From a virus, in IMG/VR virus record IMGVR_UViG_3300000547_000196, positions 21,637 through 72,019 of that record: 50,383 bases of DNA. The stretch is one strand, 5' to 3'. The notes under the pieces were generated by a model. That model did no database searches, had not been told where the DNA came from, and worked only from the letters and a program-made list of their open reading frames with translations. Numbering within the stretch: the stretch's first letter is position 1; each line of letters opens with the position of its first letter. The translations under genes were made by a program, and so were the position numbers. Positions 1 through 7,729 of the stretch are shown here, one piece after another.

Positions 1-588
1 AAATTGCTAGATCATGAGAAAGACATAGTCTTCGGAATTGGTCCTGCAGGAACCGGAAAGACCATACTAGCGGTCCAGGTGGCTGTAAAGATGTTTAAAG
101 AAGGGCACGTTGATAAAATCATAGTAACAAGACCCGCGGTATCTGCTGACGAGGATCTTGGATTCCTGCCAGGCACACTGGAGCAGAAAATGGCTCCGTG
201 GACACGCCCTATCTTTGATGTTCTTAGAGAATATTTTAACGCAAAAGAACTTGAAGGTATGGTGGAAGAAGGTGTGCTAGAGATTGCCCCTCTTGCGTAT
301 ATGAGAGGGCGAACATTCAAACGATCCTATATTATCGCAGACGAAATGCAGAACGCAACACAAAATCAAATGAAAATGTTGCTAACTCGTCTAGGTGATG
401 GATCCAAAATGGCAGTAACAGGCGACTTAAACCAGGCAGATAGGCTTAAAGATAACGGTCTCATAGATTTTACGAGACTGATGGAAACTGCCAAAGCATC
501 CCATTTGGACATAGTCCAGTTTGAACAAGGAGATATAGAAAGACATCAAGCAGTTAAAGAAGTACTAGAAGTATACGGCGACTATTAG
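1..588 (+). CDS. phoH: PhoH-like P-loop ATPase (5' end cut by window)
   Basis: PhoH-family ATPases are common in marine T4-like phages; their role in infection is unsettled (RNA or phosphate metabolism has been proposed). The reading frame is open from base 1, so the real start lies outside the window. Visible motifs are Walker A GPAGTGKT near the N-terminus, a Walker B-like IIADEMQN about 105 residues in, and the sensor-like segment AVTGDLNQAD. About 195 residues remain, so little beyond the N-terminus is missing. It is one of few plus-strand genes and converges with the dCMP deaminase gene, their stop codons overlapping by 4 nt, so no terminator separates them. Family assignment is secure; function in the phage is inference. 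Confidence 0.93.
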   Translation, partial: KLLDHEKDIVFGIGPAGTGKTILAVQVAVKMFKEGHVDKIIVTRPAVSADEDLGFLPGTLEQKMAPWTRPIFDVLREYFNAKELEGMVEEGVLEIAPLAYMRGRTFKRSYIIADEMQNATQNQMKMLLTRLGDGSKMAVTGDLNQADRLKDNGLIDFTRLMETAKASHLDIVQFEQGDIERHQAVKEVLEVYGDY

Positions 589-1013
589 GCTAACTGCGTT
601 ACAGGGATGCCGCATTGTTCTAGAAAATCTAGTCCTGCGGTGTCTCTGTAATCACGCTGATAATACACAGCGGCTATGCCACTTTGATAGATTAGTTTCG
701 CACAATCTATGCAAGGTGCGTGTGTTACAAACATTGTAGCACCTTCGCCTGATTCCGGTGAGCGAGCGAGTTTCGAAATACAGTTCGACTCCGCGTGAAG
801 CACTTCGGGTTTGGTTTTAAGCCCAGGCCAACCGTTTTCTATTACTTCGTTCTCGCACGAATTATCCCAACCGCTAGGCATACCATTATAGCCTATTGAG
901 ATAATTCTGTTGTCTTTGACGGCAATAGCGCCTACTTTAAGTCTTTTGGCAGAAGATAGTTCAGCAAATCTTTCTGCCACATCCATATATGCTCTTATGT
1001 ATTTTTCTTTCAT
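585..1013 (-). CDS. deoxycytidylate deaminase
   Basis: Zinc-dependent deaminase converting dCMP to dUMP, the substrate of ThyA encoded upstream in the same operon. The zinc site is clear: HAES at residues 73-76 (His73, catalytic Glu75) and PCIDC at 100-104 (Cys101, Cys104). The 142-residue length fits T4-like dCMP deaminases, although T4's own enzyme is longer. The start overlaps the stop of the preceding gene by 4 nt (ATGA), indicating translational coupling. It is the last gene of the minus-strand nucleotide operon that starts near 6.4 kb. A cytidine deaminase is less likely, given the ThyA and DHFR neighbours. Confidence 0.92.
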   Translation of the reverse strand: MKEKYIRAYMDVAERFAELSSAKRLKVGAIAVKDNRIISIGYNGMPSGWDNSCENEVIENGWPGLKTKPEVLHAESNCISKLARSPESGEGATMFVTHAPCIDCAKLIYQSGIAAVYYQRDYRDTAGLDFLEQCGIPVTQLA

Positions 1014-1237
1014 CCTAATCCTTTTAAATCAAACCAAGTTTTATATTTTCCTTCTTCAAACCAAAGATTAATTGTATAGTGTCCGCTGTCCCAAACTACT
1101 ATGGAATCTGATGGCATTTCCGCACACCATCGTTGCATTTTGTGCATAATGCCACTCATTTCCGTACCCGATCCGCATTCTATCTGTATTTTGTGATCAG
1201 GAGTTTTTTTGACTTCGTTGCGGTGTATCAATTTCAT
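1010..1237 (-). CDS. hypothetical protein, 75 aa
   Basis: I do not recognise this protein. It is a 75-residue soluble protein with a basic N-terminus and a C-terminal half rich in Trp and Tyr (WDSGHYTINLWFEEGKYKTW). It overlaps the downstream dCMP deaminase by 4 nt and the upstream membrane-protein gene by 4 nt, so it belongs to a tightly coupled operon. This context, not any motif, is why I call it real. Confidence 0.7.
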   Translation of the reverse strand: MKLIHRNEVKKTPDHKIQIECGSGTEMSGIMHKMQRWCAEMPSDSIVVWDSGHYTINLWFEEGKYKTWFDLKGLG

Positions 1238-1545
1238 GGCGAGCGATGAGAAAGGGCACTTCCTGTAAGTATTGCACCGAAGGAAAGATGAAACAAACCA
1301 CCTGCTTGTAGAGTAAAAGGCGTGTGTTGCTGGGTAAGATTTTCAATCAGCATCATCTGTACCGAAGCATCAGAAACCGCAGCAGAAGTTGCAGTTAACA
1401 CCTCCTGTACATCAACTCTATTCAACCCAATCCAAGCAGGTACTATAACAAAATCAAATATGCATATTATCAAATATACCACGCCTGCTAGAGACTGCCA
1501 ACCTTGTTGTTCCGAACACCAATTCCAAAATCTAAACCACGACAT
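1234..1545 (-). CDS. small membrane protein, holin-like candidate
   Basis: The protein has 103 residues and two likely membrane segments: one at about residues 19-40 (LAGVVYLIICIFDFVIVPAW) and a second near 82-98 (GGLFHLSFGAILTGSAL). Size, two hydrophobic segments and a Trp-rich N-terminus resemble small phage holins, but no lysis enzyme is adjacent, so this is only a candidate. The start is supported by AAGGAA 5 nt upstream of the ATG and by a late-type motif (ATAAATA, 1562-1568) just before it, so it can be made late independently of the operon. It overlaps the next gene by 4 nt. Confidence 0.7.
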   Translation of the reverse strand: MSWFRFWNWCSEQQGWQSLAGVVYLIICIFDFVIVPAWIGLNRVDVQEVLTATSAAVSDASVQMMLIENLTQQHTPFTLQAGGLFHLSFGAILTGSALSHRSP

Positions 1546-1547
1546 TG

Positions 1548-1778
1548 TTATTCCTTGGGATTATTTATCTGCTGTATTAAAACTTCGTTCTCTGTCAATA
1601 TCCTCGACCATTTGTAGCCTTTGATTGGAACCCTACCCCAACCGTCCATATAGATTTCTACCTGCCAGTAGTACCTTAACCAGATCCAACGATTGCTTTT
1701 GGAACTGCGTTTCGGCAACCAAGCAAACTTTTTATGCCATTTTTCTTTGGGATCAAAAAAAGCAGAAACCGGTTTCAT
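1548..1778 (-). CDS. hypothetical basic protein, 76 aa
   Basis: This is an unrecognised 76-residue protein, strongly basic and aromatic (many Lys, Arg, Trp and Tyr, e.g. SNRWIWLRYYWQVEIYMDGW). Such composition suggests nucleic-acid or protein binding, but no motif proves it. It overlaps the ThyA stop by 4 nt (ATGA) and ends 2 nt before the start of the small membrane gene. Confidence 0.7.
   Translation of the reverse strand: MKPVSAFFDPKEKWHKKFAWLPKRSSKSNRWIWLRYYWQVEIYMDGWGRVPIKGYKWSRILTENEVLIQQINNPKE
1562..1568 (-). promoter_or_regulatory. late-promoter motif ATAAATA
   Basis: On the minus strand this reads AGATAAATAATCC, close to the T4 late consensus TATAAATA. It is followed by AAGGAA and the ATG at 1545. 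It lies inside the 3' end of the preceding gene, so the 1234-1545 membrane gene may have its own late transcript with a normal leader. Confidence 0.5.
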
Positions 1779-2623
1779 ACTGCCATCGGTGCTCGTATCG
1801 CAGGCTGCGGATCATATCCCAATAAAACATAATCATCGGGAGAGGTTCTTAATACTTCTGTCAAGGAATCGAATAGAGGCATTTGCAAGTCGGGGAACGA
1901 CCCAGGAGTTCTGGATAACTGTTCTTGTACTGCGTCAAAGTGATTGTGATAGATGTGAGCATCTCCCAGTGTGTAAACAAAATCTCCTGCACGATAGCCT
2001 GTAATCTGTGCAATTATATGCGTAAGGAGAGCATAACTTGCAATATTAAATGGGCTTCCCAAGAATAAATCCGCACTTCTCTGGTATAACTGACAACTTA
2101 ATCTGTCTCTCTGCACGGAAAATTGGAATAGGGTATGACAGGGTGGCAGTGCCATTTTAGAAATCTCCGGGGGATTCCAAGCAGTAACAATCAATCTGCG
2201 GCTTGTAGGATTGCGAATGATTTCTTGAATAACCCACTCTATCTGATCCACACCGTTAAAGTTTCTCCATTGGGAACCATAAACAGGACCAAGTTCTTTT
2301 ACCTTATCTGTGTTTTCATAGCCCAATGCTTTACCCTGTTCGTCTGCGTTAGCACGCCAGATTGTGTTTTTTGAAGGATCTCTTGTTCCGTGCTGTATTT
2401 CGCATAATCTGCGTTCGTCTGTGCTGCCTTCCAAGAACCATAGCAGTTCTGATACCACTGCTCGCCAAGCAAGACGCTTTGTAGTAAGAGCAGGGAACCC
2501 TTCTGCGAGATTGAAACGCATTTGAGCACCAAAGCAGGCACGGGTATCTACGCCTGTTCTGTTAGATGTATCTGTGCCTGTGTCAAAAACCCTTTTTAAT
2601 GTGTCTAAATACTGCTGTTCCAT
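1775..2623 (-). CDS. thyA: thymidylate synthase ThyA
   Basis: Methylates dUMP to dTMP with methylene-tetrahydrofolate, producing dihydrofolate that the DHFR encoded upstream recycles. It is a classic ThyA, not ThyX. Visible motifs are the N-terminal folate/dUMP region with FPALTTKR at 43-50, the catalytic Cys162 in PPCH, RSADLFLGSPFN at 182-193, and GDAHIYHNH at 220-228. At 282 residues it has the usual length for the family. The start overlaps the preceding gene by 19 nt. Together with dCMP deaminase (which makes dUMP) and DHFR it forms a complete phage dTMP pathway within 3 kb. Confidence 0.97.
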   Translation of the reverse strand: MEQQYLDTLKRVFDTGTDTSNRTGVDTRACFGAQMRFNLAEGFPALTTKRLAWRAVVSELLWFLEGSTDERRLCEIQHGTRDPSKNTIWRANADEQGKALGYENTDKVKELGPVYGSQWRNFNGVDQIEWVIQEIIRNPTSRRLIVTAWNPPEISKMALPPCHTLFQFSVQRDRLSCQLYQRSADLFLGSPFNIASYALLTHIIAQITGYRAGDFVYTLGDAHIYHNHFDAVQEQLSRTPGSFPDLQMPLFDSLTEVLRTSPDDYVLLGYDPQPAIRAPMAV

Positions 2624-3111
2624 TTGTCTCCTCCGTCTATGGGTTCGCCTGCTTCATCTACTTCTATCCAGGTGTAGTCACCTAACCACTTTACACGGGC
2701 AAAATAGGTATACTGTTCGGGCCCGCCGCCTACCCAGTCTTGTTCTCCCATAGGAGATAGACGATATACTTCTTTATAATCGTCATACAGCAGCCAATAG
2801 CAGGAGCCGTGAGCAGGCGTAAAATCGTATTCCGCTGCGTGAACAGCATCCGTGATTTGTATTCTTCTCTGTATGCTGTCTGCCTGTCGTTTCAGCACAT
2901 CAACCATTTCCATTATTCTGTCATATTCCTGCTGTGCGTGTAGACGAGCAACGTTACGCATCAAATCTTTCTGCTGTTTAACATCTACCAAATCAAACGA
3001 AGGCGCACCTACTTCAGTAGGATAAGGAGTAGAACTCCTGTTGATAAACTCAACAATGTCCTTGCCTATTTCTGCATCTTGTGATTCTCTGCCTTTCGCC
3101 CTGTTTGACAT
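2605..3111 (-). CDS. conserved hypothetical protein, DUF2452-like
   Basis: A 168-residue protein with the pattern YPTEVGAPSFDLVDV (residues about 30-44), then a helical, Gln- and Arg-rich stretch and a C-terminal half rich in Trp and Tyr ending in Asp/Gly-rich sequence. The order resembles proteins filed as DUF2452 in phages and bacteria, whose function is unknown; I make that link from memory and it needs a profile search. The ATG overlaps the DHFR stop (TAATG), so translation is coupled within the nucleotide operon. Confidence 0.75.
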   Translation of the reverse strand: MSNRAKGRESQDAEIGKDIVEFINRSSTPYPTEVGAPSFDLVDVKQQKDLMRNVARLHAQQEYDRIMEMVDVLKRQADSIQRRIQITDAVHAAEYDFTPAHGSCYWLLYDDYKEVYRLSPMGEQDWVGGGPEQYTYFARVKWLGDYTWIEVDEAGEPIDGGDKWNSSI

Positions 3112-3605
3112 TATCTTCTATACCAAGTCTCGTATGTAGCCTCGTGCCCCTGTGCCACAACAGTTCTATGAAAATGTGATTCAATTTTTTCCATAGGCAG
3201 AAAAGTGTCGCAGTTGTAATCACCGGGAATACGCGAAAGGTAAAACCTATCAATAATAAGGAAAACTTCGTTAATCAGTTTGGCTCCACCTATAATGAAT
3301 ACATTTTCTAAACCACGCCAGTCTTCTAGACTTCTGATACCTGCTACGAGGCTTTCACCTTTTCTAGGTAGGTACTCATCTGCTCCTGGATGCTGTTCAG
3401 GATGAAGTGTAACTACCACATTGTATCTATTAGGTAGAGGTTTTGGCATTCCTTTGCTTTGCCAGGTAGAAGAGCCCATAACCACAGTCTTGCCGTCTGT
3501 CATTCTTTTGAAGTAGGCAAGATCCTCCTCCATTTTTGGCCAAGGCAGTGTTCCGTTCTTTCCTATGCCACCTCGGTCGTCACAAGCAAGTATCGCACTA
3601 ATCAT
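3111..3605 (-). CDS. folA: dihydrofolate reductase
   Basis: Reduces dihydrofolate to tetrahydrofolate with NADPH, closing the cycle opened by ThyA. At 164 residues it has normal DHFR length. Visible features are the N-terminal strand MISAILACDDRGGIG, the LPWPKMEEDLAYFKRMT loop-helix with the active-site acidic residue, the NADPH segment TVVMGSSTW, and FIIGGAKLINE, which contains the conserved GG. In T4 the equivalent gene is frd. The start overlaps the upstream membrane gene by 8 nt. Confidence 0.95.
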   Translation of the reverse strand: MISAILACDDRGGIGKNGTLPWPKMEEDLAYFKRMTDGKTVVMGSSTWQSKGMPKPLPNRYNVVVTLHPEQHPGADEYLPRKGESLVAGIRSLEDWRGLENVFIIGGAKLINEVFLIIDRFYLSRIPGDYNCDTFLPMEKIESHFHRTVVAQGHEATYETWYRR

Positions 3606-3858
3606 CTTTCATTGCTCTCATAAGAGATTCATTTTCTCTCTGTACAGTATTACGTGCTCTGTCCCATTCAATGTATAGCACGGTTCCTACGAGAGACACA
3701 ATCATCAATGTGCCTGGCACACCAAAAAAGCCGACTTCCCAGGGATAGCCTAACTGAACGGAAGCCCAGCCTCCGATAAATGCAAATACCACATAGCCAA
3801 CAAGACTACAAATAGGCCACGTCATCTGCTTTAGAAACTGTTTCCAAACTCTGCTCAC
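3598..3858 (-). CDS. small membrane protein, 86 aa
   Basis: This is an unrecognised protein with two predicted membrane spans, about residues 13-36 (WPICSLVGYVVFAFIGGW) and 42-64 (VGFFGVPGTLMIVSLVGTVLYI), and a charged C-terminal tail. It lies between the ferredoxin and DHFR genes, 1 nt after the ferredoxin stop. It could anchor or assist the ferredoxin, but nothing in the sequence demonstrates that. Confidence 0.72.
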   Translation of the reverse strand: MSRVWKQFLKQMTWPICSLVGYVVFAFIGGWASVQLGYPWEVGFFGVPGTLMIVSLVGTVLYIEWDRARNTVQRENESLMRAMKDD

Positions 3859-3859
3859 G

Positions 3860-4213
3860 TCAATCTCCTTTGCCGGGTTCTGGCGAAAAATGTGTTTCCA
3901 GTTTGTTTTTCACCCCGTCCCAGTCTTCTGCATCTTCTGGAACGTCTTCTTCCCGCATTTCTGTAATATTGGGCCAAAGTTTAGCATACTTTGCATTGTG
4001 TTCTTCCCACAGTTGGCGAATGTCGCCTTCAAGTTCGTTGTCAGGCACGATAGCATCAACAGGACACTCTGGCACACAAACACCACAATCTATACACTCG
4101 TCGGGATCAATAACAAGCATATTTTCGCCTTCATAAAAGCAATCCACCGGGCAACACTCAACGCAGTCCATATACTTGCATTTAATGCAATTATCAGTCA
4201 CCAAATAAGTCAT
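3860..4213 (-). CDS. fdxA: 7Fe ferredoxin, FdxA type
   Basis: Soluble electron carrier with one [3Fe-4S] and one [4Fe-4S] cluster. The cysteine pattern matches the Azotobacter FdI class shifted by one residue: Cys9, Cys17 and Cys50 for the 3Fe cluster; Cys21, Cys40, Cys43 and Cys46 for the 4Fe cluster; extra Cys12 and Cys25 as in that family. At 117 residues, with the typical acidic C-terminal tail (EVxP-type [13 protein letters not shown]), it looks like a full-length proteobacterial FdxA, not a plant-type [2Fe-2S] phage ferredoxin. It overlaps the endonuclease III stop region by 4 nt. Possible partners are ribonucleotide or sulfur metabolism or other host reductases; this is inference. Confidence 0.95.
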
Positions 4214-4896
4214 GTTCTTTCCTTTGCAACTTCTCTCAAACGATATTTAGGTACGCCAATGTCTCGCTTTTCACAGTATTCTTCTAGTATACACTCATTG
4301 CACAAAGGCTGTCTACTCTTGCACACAAGTTTGGCATGAGTAATCAACTGCATGTGAGCAGCATACTTGTATTTGTCGGGAGTAGTTTCATTTACGGTTT
4401 CGCTTGTCTTGCCTTCATCAAGCGAATCTGTCCATCCCAGTCGCCAAAGAAGGCGAAATACATGAGTGTCCACTGCGATGTTAGGCTCGCCGTATACAAA
4501 ACGCATCACAATGTCAGAACTTTTCTTGCCAACACCGGGGAGTTTCATTAATTCTTTTTGAGTAGTAGGAACCTTGCCCCCGTATTCATCTATTAGCATC
4601 TGTGATGTTGCAAGAATATTTTTTGATTTTGCTTGGAACAAACCTGCTGGACGAATTGCTTCTATCACAGTGTCTCTGTCCAATTTAACCATGTCCCAGG
4701 GATTGTCTGCCAAAGCAAACAGTTGACGACTTGCTTGTGCTGTGCGCTTGTCTTGACTTTGAGCACTCAACATTACACCGATGAGACTTTTGTATGCATC
4801 TTTGTGTATCTTCGCAGCAGGCTTGGAGTTCCTATATTCAGGATACTCTCCCCCCAGTCTTTTGTAAATCTGTTTGATTTCTGCTTCGGTCTTCAT
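4210..4896 (-). CDS. nth: endonuclease III (DNA glycosylase/AP lyase)
   Basis: Base-excision repair enzyme removing oxidised pyrimidines and cutting abasic sites. The 228-residue protein shows the helix-hairpin-helix [12 protein letters not shown] (119-130) with the catalytic Lys125, the catalytic Asp143 in AVDTHVFR, and the C-terminal [4Fe-4S] loop Cys192-x6-Cys199-x2-Cys202-x5-Cys208. All key residues are present, so it should be active. It is encoded between gp44 and the ferredoxin with 4-nt overlaps on both sides. T4 itself uses DenV for pyrimidine-dimer repair; here UvsE (21994-23040) could cover UV damage and Nth oxidative damage. Confidence 0.95.
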
Positions 4897-5816
4897 TCAG
4901 CATTCCTTGCGAGACGAATAAGGGTAGCAGCGAGGTTGATTTCTGGATCAGCTACAAGAGTGTGATCCACTAGACCCTGTTTGATGATAAGCACTGCTTG
5001 ATCCTGTTTTTCTTCTGTTGCACCAAACAGTTCTATATTCGAATACAACCAACGATAGATTTCTTCCATCTCCTCTGGACGAACAGTGCCGCACAACAGT
5101 TTTCTTGCTTCCTGGATTTTGCCTGCCTTGAACAGTTCTACCATATCCAGTTTCCAGTCTGCCTCACCTGTGTCACCTTCATGCGGAGCAACCAACGCAC
5201 CGTCTACTACATTCATCTGAACAGTGTTAATGCACTTTCTCAAATCGGGATAGGTTGCTTTTACATAGGTATCCAACACGTCAATGTCAGGCGTTACTCC
5301 TTCGGAGATTAGTATTTCTGCCACACGAGCAGTAAATTCTGTTTCGTCAATCTTTGCAATATGAAAACCTTGACAGCGTGAGTGAATAGCAGGAATAATT
5401 CTGTTGGGATAGTTACAGGTTAGGATAAATCGTGCTGTGGTATGATACTCTTCCATTACACCACGCAGTGCTGCCTGTGCGTTTGGTGATAGATAGTCAG
5501 CCTCGTCTAACAGCACGACTTTGAAGTCGCCAAACGGAATCATCTGTACAAAATTAACAATCTTGTCACGAACGTCATCTACAGAGTTTGTGCGAGAAGC
5601 GTTAATCTCTAAAATGTCTAAATCGTTTATGTCAAGTTCGTGAAACAGGATTTTTGCAAGAGTAGTCTTGCCAATACCCGCGTTGCCTGAAAACAGCAGA
5701 TGAGGAATAGTCTTGTCCTTAACCCAGGTTTCTACCTGCTTTCTCTGTTCCGCGTCACGAAACACATAGCCGTCAATGGTTTTCGGGCGATACGCCTCAA
5801 CCCATAATTTCTTCAT
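4893..5816 (-). CDS. 44: clamp loader large subunit, gp44 type
   Basis: AAA+ ATPase that loads the sliding clamp for the T4-type replisome. In the 307 residues one sees the RFC box I-like WVEAYRPKTIDGYV at the start, Walker A GNAGIGKT at 44-51, the DEAD variant of Walker B in LLDEADYL (102-109), sensor 1 TCNYPNRI (133-140) and the SRC arginine-finger motif at 146-148. Length matches T4 gp44 (about 319). The small subunit gp62 and the clamp gp45 are not in this window. It overlaps the exonuclease gene by 4 nt and Nth by 4 nt. Confidence 0.96.
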   Translation of the reverse strand: MKKLWVEAYRPKTIDGYVFRDAEQRKQVETWVKDKTIPHLLFSGNAGIGKTTLAKILFHELDINDLDILEINASRTNSVDDVRDKIVNFVQMIPFGDFKVVLLDEADYLSPNAQAALRGVMEEYHTTARFILTCNYPNRIIPAIHSRCQGFHIAKIDETEFTARVAEILISEGVTPDIDVLDTYVKATYPDLRKCINTVQMNVVDGALVAPHEGDTGEADWKLDMVELFKAGKIQEARKLLCGTVRPEEMEEIYRWLYSNIELFGATEEKQDQAVLIIKQGLVDHTLVADPEINLAATLIRLARNAE

Positions 5817-6358
5817 CTCGGTTTAACTCCAAAGTGTTTATATGAATATTGTACGCATTTTGCCTGATAATAGCAATCAGCAAGTGCGTTGTGTAGACTT
5901 TTCTGTATGTCTTTCCTAGGATCCTTTGGCATCATAGCGAACAGAGTGCGCGAGTCTCTAATCTGCCAATAGTGCCAGGGTGCGGGCTTTTCTGCCTGCT
6001 TGTATAAATGTTGTAAAATAACAAAATCAAATGTAGGACCTTGACACCAAATGTAATCCAATCCCACACACCATTTGTTTAATGCTCGGAGCATTTCTTG
6101 CACAAGGGTTCTGTCTGCGTGTTCGCCGAATGCCTCTGCCTGTATTTCTTCAGGCTGCTTGCTCCACCACGCAAGAGTGTTGTCGTCTATAGTCCTGGTA
6201 AATTGTTCAGTCTGTTCTTCAACATCCCCTCTTACATAAAGTGGAGAGTGGGGTTCCGAGTCGGAGAAAGGATCAAACTTGATAGCACCCAGAGTCATTA
6301 CAACACTGTCGGGCTCTACACCCAGTGTTTCGAGATCGATCATTCCGTGTGTAGCCAA
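5813..6358 (-). CDS. DEDD-family 3'-5' exonuclease, DexA-like
   Basis: Probable exonuclease for DNA degradation or proofreading; T4 DexA is the closest familiar relative. Motif Exo I is MIDLETLG (Asp8 and Glu10 counted from the TTG start), and later acidic motifs lie in WCQGPTFDFVIL and ALADCYYQAK. I choose the TTG at 6358 because AGGAG lies exactly 7 nt upstream, whereas the in-frame ATG at 6343 has no good ribosome site. That AGGAG is the distal arm of the hairpin at 6365-6410 that also contains the promoter, so translation probably depends on which promoter made the message. First gene of the replication and nucleotide operon. Confidence 0.85.
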   Translation of the reverse strand: MATHGMIDLETLGVEPDSVVMTLGAIKFDPFSDSEPHSPLYVRGDVEEQTEQFTRTIDDNTLAWWSKQPEEIQAEAFGEHADRTLVQEMLRALNKWCVGLDYIWCQGPTFDFVILQHLYKQAEKPAPWHYWQIRDSRTLFAMMPKDPRKDIQKSLHNALADCYYQAKCVQYSYKHFGVKPR

Positions 6359-6364
6359 AGAAAA

Positions 6365-6413
6365 ACTCCTCTACTATTTTGTAAAGTATAACACTTTACA
6401 GTAGAGGAGTCAA
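6365..6413 (-). promoter_or_regulatory. hairpin-embedded sigma70-like promoter with sequestered SD
   Basis: Minus-strand promoter TTGACT (6408-6413), 17 nt, TATACT (6385-6390). The same bases form a long inverted repeat: 11 bp (6365-6375 with 6400-6410) extended by an inner 7-bp stem (6381-6387 with 6393-6399), followed by five T. In read-through RNA from the gp31-like gene the full hairpin forms; it could terminate transcription and would bury the AGGAG at 6366-6370. RNA started at this promoter begins after the first arm, leaving the AGGAG free for the TTG start at 6358. Base pairing and motifs are seen; the regulatory logic is inferred from similar T4 genes. Confidence 0.75.
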
Positions 6414-6415
6414 GT

Positions 6416-6820
6416 TTAAGCAGTTACAAAAGTGGAAGGATCAAACGAAGCACTTTCTCCGTCAGAGTATTCGTTACCTAGAATAACACCTTCTGGCTTT
6501 TCGTCGGCCCATCCAAGAATAGATTCTGCTTCTACCATTCTAATTTCAAGTTCGTTGTCACCGTCTCCAATTTTAATACCGCGTGTCCAACGACCGTGTT
6601 CAACTAACACCCAATCTCCTTCTGCATAAGGATCATCATTGTGAGGACCTTTCTTATACACTCTACCCCAACGTGGATAAACACCTCGAGTAGTTCCGTC
6701 GTCGTCTTGTATAATAATACCGCTCGCAGTGCGTTGCTCTCCAAAATACATATCGGAGACTAGAACTCTGTTTCCTACTGCTCTTAGATCACCTTCAATA
6801 GCGTTATAGTTGACGCTCAT
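6416..6820 (-). CDS. 31: gp31/GroES-like cochaperonin
   Basis: Probable cochaperonin partnering host GroEL in folding the phage capsid protein, as T4 gp31 does. I place the start at the ATG at 6820, which overlaps the previous stop by 4 nt. The longer frame to 6865 would overlap the upstream gene and begins with a poor leader. The 134-residue product has the GroES-type core: GNRVLVSDMYFGE, the mobile-loop region with GIIIQDDDGTTRGVYP, then WGRVYKKGP and YAEGDWVLVEHGRWTRGI. The C-terminal tail is acidic. It ends just before the composite hairpin and promoter at 6365-6413. Its sequence is far from GroES, so gp31-like is the safest call. Confidence 0.85.
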   Translation of the reverse strand: MSVNYNAIEGDLRAVGNRVLVSDMYFGEQRTASGIIIQDDDGTTRGVYPRWGRVYKKGPHNDDPYAEGDWVLVEHGRWTRGIKIGDGDNELEIRMVEAESILGWADEKPEGVILGNEYSDGESASFDPSTFVTA

Positions 6821-7140
6821 TCGTCCTCCTTGCGTACAAAATTTCCATCTTCGTCTTCCACCCATTCTGTTGTAGGTTCTGGTTCTTCCCAGTCATCTAC
6901 AAGATCTTTTTTCTTGTTTTTCTGGCTGACAGGAACTTCGTCGGGTACAGGCTTGTTGCTGTAATATTCATTAACAAGATCTTCTCTCTTTTTTACAATC
7001 TTGCCACCAGCGCCTAATTGATCACCTCTTGCATTTACTTTTGCATTTCCTACAGCAGGTGTTAATTCATTTCTCTGCCGGAGCATGTCCATGTCAACGG
7101 TTTTTCCTTGCATGGTTTTGTAAATTTTTCTTTTAGACAT
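6817..7140 (-). CDS. conserved phage protein, 107 aa
   Basis: The protein has 107 residues with a basic N-terminal half and a strongly acidic C-terminal tail. The segment RNELTPAVGNAKVNARGDQL followed by GAGGKIVKKRE looks like a motif I recall from marine T4-like phage proteins of unknown function, often close to structural genes. No enzyme motif is visible. It is coupled to the gp31-like gene by a 4-nt overlap, which fits a role in capsid or virion assembly, but that is inference. Confidence 0.75.
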   Translation of the reverse strand: MSKRKIYKTMQGKTVDMDMLRQRNELTPAVGNAKVNARGDQLGAGGKIVKKREDLVNEYYSNKPVPDEVPVSQKNKKKDLVDDWEEPEPTTEWVEDEDGNFVRKEDE

Positions 7141-7165: not shown

Positions 7166-7729
7166 TTATCTCAAGAACTCTCGCCAATCAAGTCCATATT
7201 GGATTGGATTTATTTTGTGAACGCCTATGAGATATAGCACATAACTTGCTACCGAACTTCCTCTACCTACTCCCCAAACTATATCATTTTCGCGCATAAA
7301 GTTTACAAGATAGATCATATAGCGAAGTAAGTCAAATAATCCGTGTTTTTGATATGCTTCTAATTCTTCGTTTGTTCGCTTAATCTCAGGCAAATCTCTT
7401 TTGTGCCAAACTTCGCTAGGATCTATGCCAAGTTCTTCTGCTAGTTTAAAAATAAAAAATTCTGATAAGTCTATTTTTTTGTATTCGTCTGGCATTAGCC
7501 ATTCTGATTGACATACTCTGTCGAATTCTGTTTTATCTGCATCTATTGCGATATACTTTTGAAGTTCAGGAAGACCGTTTTCTTCTGCTGCTTCGTTGAA
7601 CTTATCAACATCTTCAGACTCGTCGCAGAGCACCACATGAACTTTATCAGTGTGACCAGAATATATCATATTGATAAGATCCTGATTAGAGAATCTAGGA
7701 ATACCTAATTCGTCAGTTTTCATAAGCAT
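7166..7729 (-). CDS. DnaE-like (DNA polymerase III alpha) fragment protein
   Basis: A 187-residue protein whose C-terminal 55 residues resemble the palm entry of bacterial DnaE: LRYMIYLVNFMRENDIVWG then VGRGSSVASYVLYLIGVHKI and PIQYGLDWREFLR. Normal DnaE continues from here into the PDFDID catalytic aspartates, which are absent because the gene stops. It therefore cannot be a polymerase. I recall similar stand-alone proteins in marine T4-like phages, so it is probably a conserved domesticated domain, not recent decay. Two in-frame ATGs (7729 and 7723) are possible and neither has a clear Shine-Dalgarno. It sits between structural-type genes. Confidence 0.8.
   Translation of the reverse strand: MLMKTDELGIPRFSNQDLINMIYSGHTDKVHVVLCDESEDVDKFNEAAEENGLPELQKYIAIDADKTEFDRVCQSEWLMPDEYKKIDLSEFFIFKLAEELGIDPSEVWHKRDLPEIKRTNEELEAYQKHGLFDLLRYMIYLVNFMRENDIVWGVGRGSSVASYVLYLIGVHKINPIQYGLDWREFLR

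Follow-up and report, generated by a model that had tools for sequence, protein, structure and literature searches.

A sigma70-type promoter within a hairpin that pairs with the Shine–Dalgarno sequence of an exonuclease gene in uncultured T4-like phages

We analyzed a 50,383-nucleotide stretch of DNA (the window) from a 106-kb virus contig whose T4-like genes include a phage DNA polymerase and found, at the start of an exonuclease gene, a hairpin that overlaps a promoter and contains the gene's Shine–Dalgarno sequence. We propose, with a probability of roughly 0.77, that the hairpin is a compact operon insulator, acting at once as terminator, as lock on the Shine–Dalgarno and as host of a promoter from whose RNA the exonuclease is translated. 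The element is real, conserved and selected, and it is a sigma70-promoter, terminator-bearing variant of a device known from T4. In that phage, the genes e, soc, 49 and I-TevI have a late promoter placed in a hairpin and their Shine–Dalgarno is paired in long transcripts (PMC3014915, PMC2988022), a precedent that an initial annotation of the window had invoked and that the literature documents.

All parts of the element lie on the minus strand, in the region 6413–6356, as confirmed by inspection of the sequence. In the direction of transcription, the features are:

6416–6865, minus: upstream gene, GroES/gp31-like co-chaperonin (PHROG head morphogenesis, E 2.5e-11; co-chaperonin GroES, E 3.7e-5)
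6408–6413, minus: -35 box TTGACT, its last three bases opening the proximal stem arm
6400–6410, minus: proximal (5') arm ACTCCTCTACT, complementary to the Shine–Dalgarno arm and covarying among relatives
6381–6399, minus: inner stem-loop GTAAAGT-GTTAT-ACTTTAC, containing the -10 box
6385–6390, minus: -10 box TATACT, TG-extended (TATAAT in most relatives)
6378, minus: predicted transcription start, placed 7 nt past the -10 box by promoter geometry
6365–6375, minus: distal (3') arm AGTAGAGGAGT, pairing with the proximal arm
6366–6370, minus: Shine–Dalgarno AGGAG, whose predicted partner in read-through RNA is the proximal-arm CTCCT
6357–6365, minus: U-rich tract TTTTTCTTT, directly past the Shine–Dalgarno and into the TTG start; terminator-like, enriched in relatives
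5813–6358, minus: exonuclease with TTG start, first operon gene (3'-5' exonuclease, Rv2179c-like/phage exonuclease; Pfam PF16473, E 2.3e-36; PHROG exonuclease, E 4.8e-50)
585–5816, minus: rest of the presumed operon, with a dCMP deaminase-like gene named from sequence

The outer stem consists of 11 perfect pairs (6410–6400 with 6375–6365) and the inner stem of seven (6399–6393 with 6387–6381, GTAAAGT/ACTTTAC, around the loop 6392–6388), just as the initial annotation had them; five bases, 6380–6376, stay unpaired between the two stems on the 3' side. The sequence likewise bears out the annotated promoter, TTGACT-17-TATACT at 6413–6385 with TG ahead of the -10 box, and an AGGAG in the distal arm (6370–6366) 7 nt ahead of the exonuclease TTG (6358–6356). 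Two details had to be amended. Where five T were said to follow the stem, there is indeed a T-rich tract, but T6365 is paired in the stem and so four T follow, the whole tract reading TTTTT-C-TTT and running into the TTG start. The promoter boxes, said to lie in the stem, overlap it but straddle its limits: just three bases of the -35 box fall within the stem, and the -10 box is split evenly between inner loop and inner stem.

The gp31-like gene upstream encodes 149 amino acids counted from the first ATG, the true start being probably internal, and its stop codon (6418–6416) leaves a gap of 5 nt to the stem. Tail-fibre and baseplate-like genes are found upstream of the element; adjoining the structural genes, at 7166–7729 on the minus strand, is a 187-aa DNA polymerase III alpha-like fragment, in a phage that has a T4-type DNA polymerase too. 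Behind the exonuclease, the presumed operon holds genes for a clamp-loader ATPase, an HhH-GPD (endonuclease III-like) glycosylase, a ferredoxin, a small ORF, DHFR and DUF2452, followed by thymidylate synthase, small ORFs and the dCMP deaminase-like gene.

Against dinucleotide shuffles, the folding energy of the hairpin had a z of -5.1, none of 200 shuffles being as stable, and the hairpin is the sole perfect 11-bp inverted repeat with a loop of at most 30 nt in the 50-kb window, in which about 0.5 would be expected at random. The promoter match alone was at background in a scan of the window (34 found, 31 expected); not being significant there, it led us to use relatives, and the case for the element rests on conservation and covariation among them. 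A simple terminator scan of the window, which takes loops of at most 8 nt, did not list the hairpin, and an Rfam covariance-model search of the element gave only a chance snoRNA match (E 0.42, far under the gathering score). Searched at the nucleotide level, phage records gave no match to the window; the nearest isolate exonucleases were less than 60% identical, and we found no close relative in culture whose RNA ends have been mapped.

Using the exonuclease protein as query, blind to the upstream DNA, we collected 80 loci. In 44 of the 80, the window counted in, a promoter with a 10–12/12 match stands at the operon head, preceding either the exonuclease or a small ORF of 52–64 aa inserted ahead of it. 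The latter is conserved (MKLTPQTAGIGTTGATGIALMILH...), perhaps membrane-bound, and lies between hairpin and exonuclease in L005–L016, L022–L024, L109 and others. Such an element is missing near the exonuclease in close to half of the 80 relatives, where a tRNA or another ORF stands instead; in L003, L027, L031, L037, L049 and L061, a tRNA-like sequence directly precedes an exonuclease with an ATG start. Among 30 distinct elements, 27 share one common layout, and the Shine–Dalgarno is closed in read-through RNA in 23 (probability unpaired <0.1) and partially closed in the remaining seven. Two relatives (L011 and L012) keep a consensus TTGACA -35 box, and another pairing register, CATATAGACTTC/GGAGTCTATATG, closes the AUG.

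A pattern search extended the sample beyond the exonuclease loci. At least 120 stretches of viral contigs match the element pattern, compared with three matches in 257 Gb of cellular genomes, a rough comparison since the patterns were not identical and the cellular one was stricter, ending in TTTT. The same kind of promoter-hairpin was seen before a MazG-like pyrophosphohydrolase gene in other uncultured phages (L087, L105, L110, L118, L120, L139, L149, L153 and L160) and before a dUTPase-like gene in L128. In the isolate cyanophages S-SKS1, Bellamy and RN05-S, the gene preceding MazG overlaps its start and leaves the element no space.

Outside a five-base core, CTCCT/AGGAG, the arms vary widely among relatives, with complementarity maintained. 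In the protein-found set, elements formed 8.74 of 11 pairs with their own arms and 6.93 with swapped arms (0/5,000 permutations). The corresponding values were 7.63 and 5.49 for 101 distinct elements, the viral-contig pattern search included (0/5,000), and 6.21 and 4.64 for 39 cluster representatives, chance matches included (0/5,000); 24 of 107 pattern matches were weakly paired and were treated as chance. Across 20 diverse elements, 85% of the stem cells were paired compared with 67% after shuffling (0/500), double-change cells numbered 44 against 16, and the covariation score was 0.495 against 0.186 (0/500), with slid registers reaching at most 0.215; at a shifted register, used as a negative control, covariation fell to background values. 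These 20 elements were hand-picked from the cluster representatives with a bias towards clear hairpins, and the permutation on all 39 representatives is the fairer version of the test. Both halves changed together in dozens of relatives, from which it follows that the pairing matters.

Covariation bears directly on two ways of explaining the hairpin away. Since -35 boxes ending in CT(CCT) complement AGGAG, the remainder of the stem might be coincidence, and the background level of the window promoter scan and the five free pairs of CTCCT/AGGAG are what this would predict. The pairing outside the core nevertheless covaries (0/5,000 and 0/500) and other promoters in the same genomes rarely show it, which brings the probability of chance close to nil. 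The inverted repeat could alternatively be the DNA operator of a dimeric repressor overlapping the promoter: a repeat across -35 and -10 has the usual operator shape, and one of the three cellular matches (L326, a Christensenella contig) sits ahead of a gene for an Rrf2-type regulator, its inverted repeat there perhaps serving as a DNA operator. In the phage elements, however, the complementarity is conserved and the arm sequence is not, the arm spacing varies, and the conserved half is exactly the Shine–Dalgarno and its complement, making an operator very improbable. Both explanations were rejected on covariation.

The other promoters of the same phages provide an internal control. In contigs of 20 relatives, TTGACW-16..18-TATAAT was many times commoner than a reversed control pattern, an excess indicating that these phages use sigma70-type promoters. 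Promoter sites with their flanks were then drawn from eight relatives. At the operon-head promoters, the Shine–Dalgarno was fully hidden (probability unpaired 0.00), in direct contrast to about 70 other sigma70 promoters, at which it was mostly open, with a typical probability of about 0.5. There were few exceptions, one of them a clear second instance before an unrelated gene in relative G004 (L268), and the window's own contig had no such hairpin at its other good promoters. The rarity of the hairpin elsewhere implies that the architecture is retained at certain genes and does not simply follow from promoter and Shine–Dalgarno consensus.

As in intrinsic (rho-independent) terminators, the stable stem is followed directly by a U-rich tract. 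It differs from them in that its 3' arm is the Shine–Dalgarno, its 5' arm is part of a promoter and its U tract runs into a start codon. At least seven T within the 9 nt past AGGAG were counted in 42 of 70 strong hairpins and in none of 102 ordinary AGGAG sites of the same genomes (kinship uncorrected). Of the distinct exonucleases placed immediately after the element, 18 of 19 began with TTG or GTG, and all 34 others began with ATG (Fisher 3e-13, kinship uncorrected), and in most of the TTG/GTG cases a TTG lengthens the U tract. The hairpin is thus probably a terminator as well as a lock, to judge from these compositional biases.

The same figures could mean that the hairpin is primarily the intrinsic terminator of the upstream operon, its arms reused in a crowded genome as promoter part and Shine–Dalgarno and the hiding a by-product. 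The enriched U tract, the upstream stop codon just 5 nt ahead of the stem, and the start codons, consistent with a U tract running into TTG, all fit such an account. Against it, eight strong hairpins have few T and no U tract (for example, AGGAG-ATCTC), showing that termination is not universal; L011 and L012 close their AUG by another register and lack a U tract; and the predicted T4 counterparts described below lack one too. We regard a primary terminator as unlikely, though a serious contender. On the simplest reading, what the elements have in common is that they hide the ribosome site, to which termination is often added.

The genes upstream of the element vary among relatives, belonging to gp31-like, 117-aa, HAD-like, MazG-like and other families (all but gp31 named from sequence). 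They are co-directional in almost every case, and the -35 box usually lies no more than 20 nt from their ends, so that read-through is to be expected and little space is left for a separate terminator. The proximity of their stop codons, 5 nt ahead of the stem in the window and within about 20 nt in many relatives, could also suggest translational coupling, in which ribosomes reaching the upstream stop melt the base of the stem and translation of the long RNA requires that of the upstream gene. We find coupling rather improbable: the distance from stop codon to element varies among relatives, from overlap up to 60 nt, and a terminating ribosome would cover the first few pairs only.

Under the insulator mechanism, which we consider likely overall on the comparative evidence, polymerase arriving from the gp31-like and structural genes upstream would copy the entire hairpin. 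Stem and U tract would end many incoming transcripts where the exonuclease gene begins; in RNA continuing past the hairpin, the Shine–Dalgarno would be paired with -35 and spacer sequence and thereby be unusable. The embedded sigma70 promoter would give RNA from about 6378 that lacks the proximal arm and can form neither terminator nor lock, and from this RNA the exonuclease would be translated. Expression of the exonuclease, which heads the replication and nucleotide operon, would then require the operon's own promoter, whatever transcription goes on next to it; the likely purpose is to keep late read-through RNA from being expressed after the early promoter has shut down. We infer the early use of the embedded promoter from one feature, its host-sigma form; the gene order, with the replication and nucleotide operon behind structural genes, suggests the opposite of a late gene lying in early or middle transcripts. 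In fold predictions for the window, the Shine–Dalgarno was unpaired with a probability of 0.00 in read-through RNA and 0.27 in inner-promoter RNA, and the values for promoter-derived RNA of relatives ranged from 0.05 to 0.81. The modeled opening appears real but partial, which counts against our explanation, as does the frequent pairing of the TTG start itself with coding sequence. The initial annotation had held that read-through RNA is terminated or left untranslated, for which the covariation of the arms and the enrichment of terminator-like U tracts give comparative support; its interpretation as a whole is partly supported. It held that the timing of the whole operon is controlled, whereas a position behind the lock was shown for the operon's first gene only.

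The element shares two properties with the T4 late-promoter locks (e, soc and 49; I-TevI and segB; mobE of Aeh1): the Shine–Dalgarno is paired with upstream RNA in long transcripts, and a promoter at the 5' arm yields a shorter RNA without that arm. In the window, fold prediction and covariation indicate pairing of the Shine–Dalgarno and/or start codon in read-through RNA, and by geometry the predicted start at 6378 lies past the proximal arm (6410–6400). The T4 locks differ in having late promoters and keeping late genes silent in early RNA, whereas the window element has a sigma70-type promoter, stands before a replication and nucleotide operon behind structural genes and has an added U tract. 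The T4 late promoter TATAAATA is absent from the element; its nearest copy in the window is 19 kb away, and the window holds six copies where three are expected, an excess that may be chance. A search for T4 gp55 found none in this phage (G000) and weak matches in two relatives, which makes the late-transcription system of this phage a putative one. The expected timing is the reverse of the T4 precedent, in that RNA made by host polymerase would be translated and upstream read-through silenced.

The same method recovered the known T4 locks of e, 49, segB and I-TevII. Applied to 215 genes of T4, it further predicted for the early genes denV, nrdC.8, regB, 30.8 and alc that read-through RNA has all five Shine–Dalgarno bases paired inside a T4 early-type promoter, whereas promoter RNA leaves them open (0.48–0.91). 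In each, the spacer of the early-type promoter would pair with the gene's own Shine–Dalgarno:

L319:32741, 35356 and 23886, minus: T4 regB, denV and nrdC.8, respectively
L323:10254 and 16276, minus: T4 30.8 and alc, respectively

Less clear cases were motB.2, modB and e.8. Hidden sites were commoner behind T4 early-type promoters, with 9 of 38 against 11 of 177 (p 0.003), one of the nine being gene 49, which is known to be late and was picked up through the looseness of the pattern. The five predicted cases resemble the window element in that an early-type promoter pairs with its own Shine–Dalgarno in read-through RNA only, and differ from it in having no U tract and unrelated genes. By eye, the leaders of T4 dmd, ipI, ipII, e.7, cd.2 and trna.4 (L319, L322 and L323) show an inverted repeat across the -10 box that excludes the Shine–Dalgarno. 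Our literature searches found neither an early-promoter version of the device nor the T4 early pairing, which older T4 papers outside the search may describe.

The element, found in uncultured T4-like viruses of bacteria, amounts to a natural 45-base part in which terminator, promoter and ribosome site are combined, and translation is probably confined to RNA that starts within the lock. According to a review, the genes under such hairpin control in T4 are all late (PMC2988022); here, the logic would be turned round, with an early-type promoter as the key and the RNA of neighbouring transcription kept silent. We advance only tentatively, at somewhat under even odds, the wider proposal that T4-like phages, T4 included, generally use host-sigma (early) promoters to gate translation. 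If so, replication and takeover genes would be locked in all read-through RNA, and turning the early promoters off would turn translation off too, despite later transcription running through. The element itself suggests a simple way, testable in T4 through the predicted counterparts, in which phages with compact genomes could avoid making early replication genes again under late transcription.
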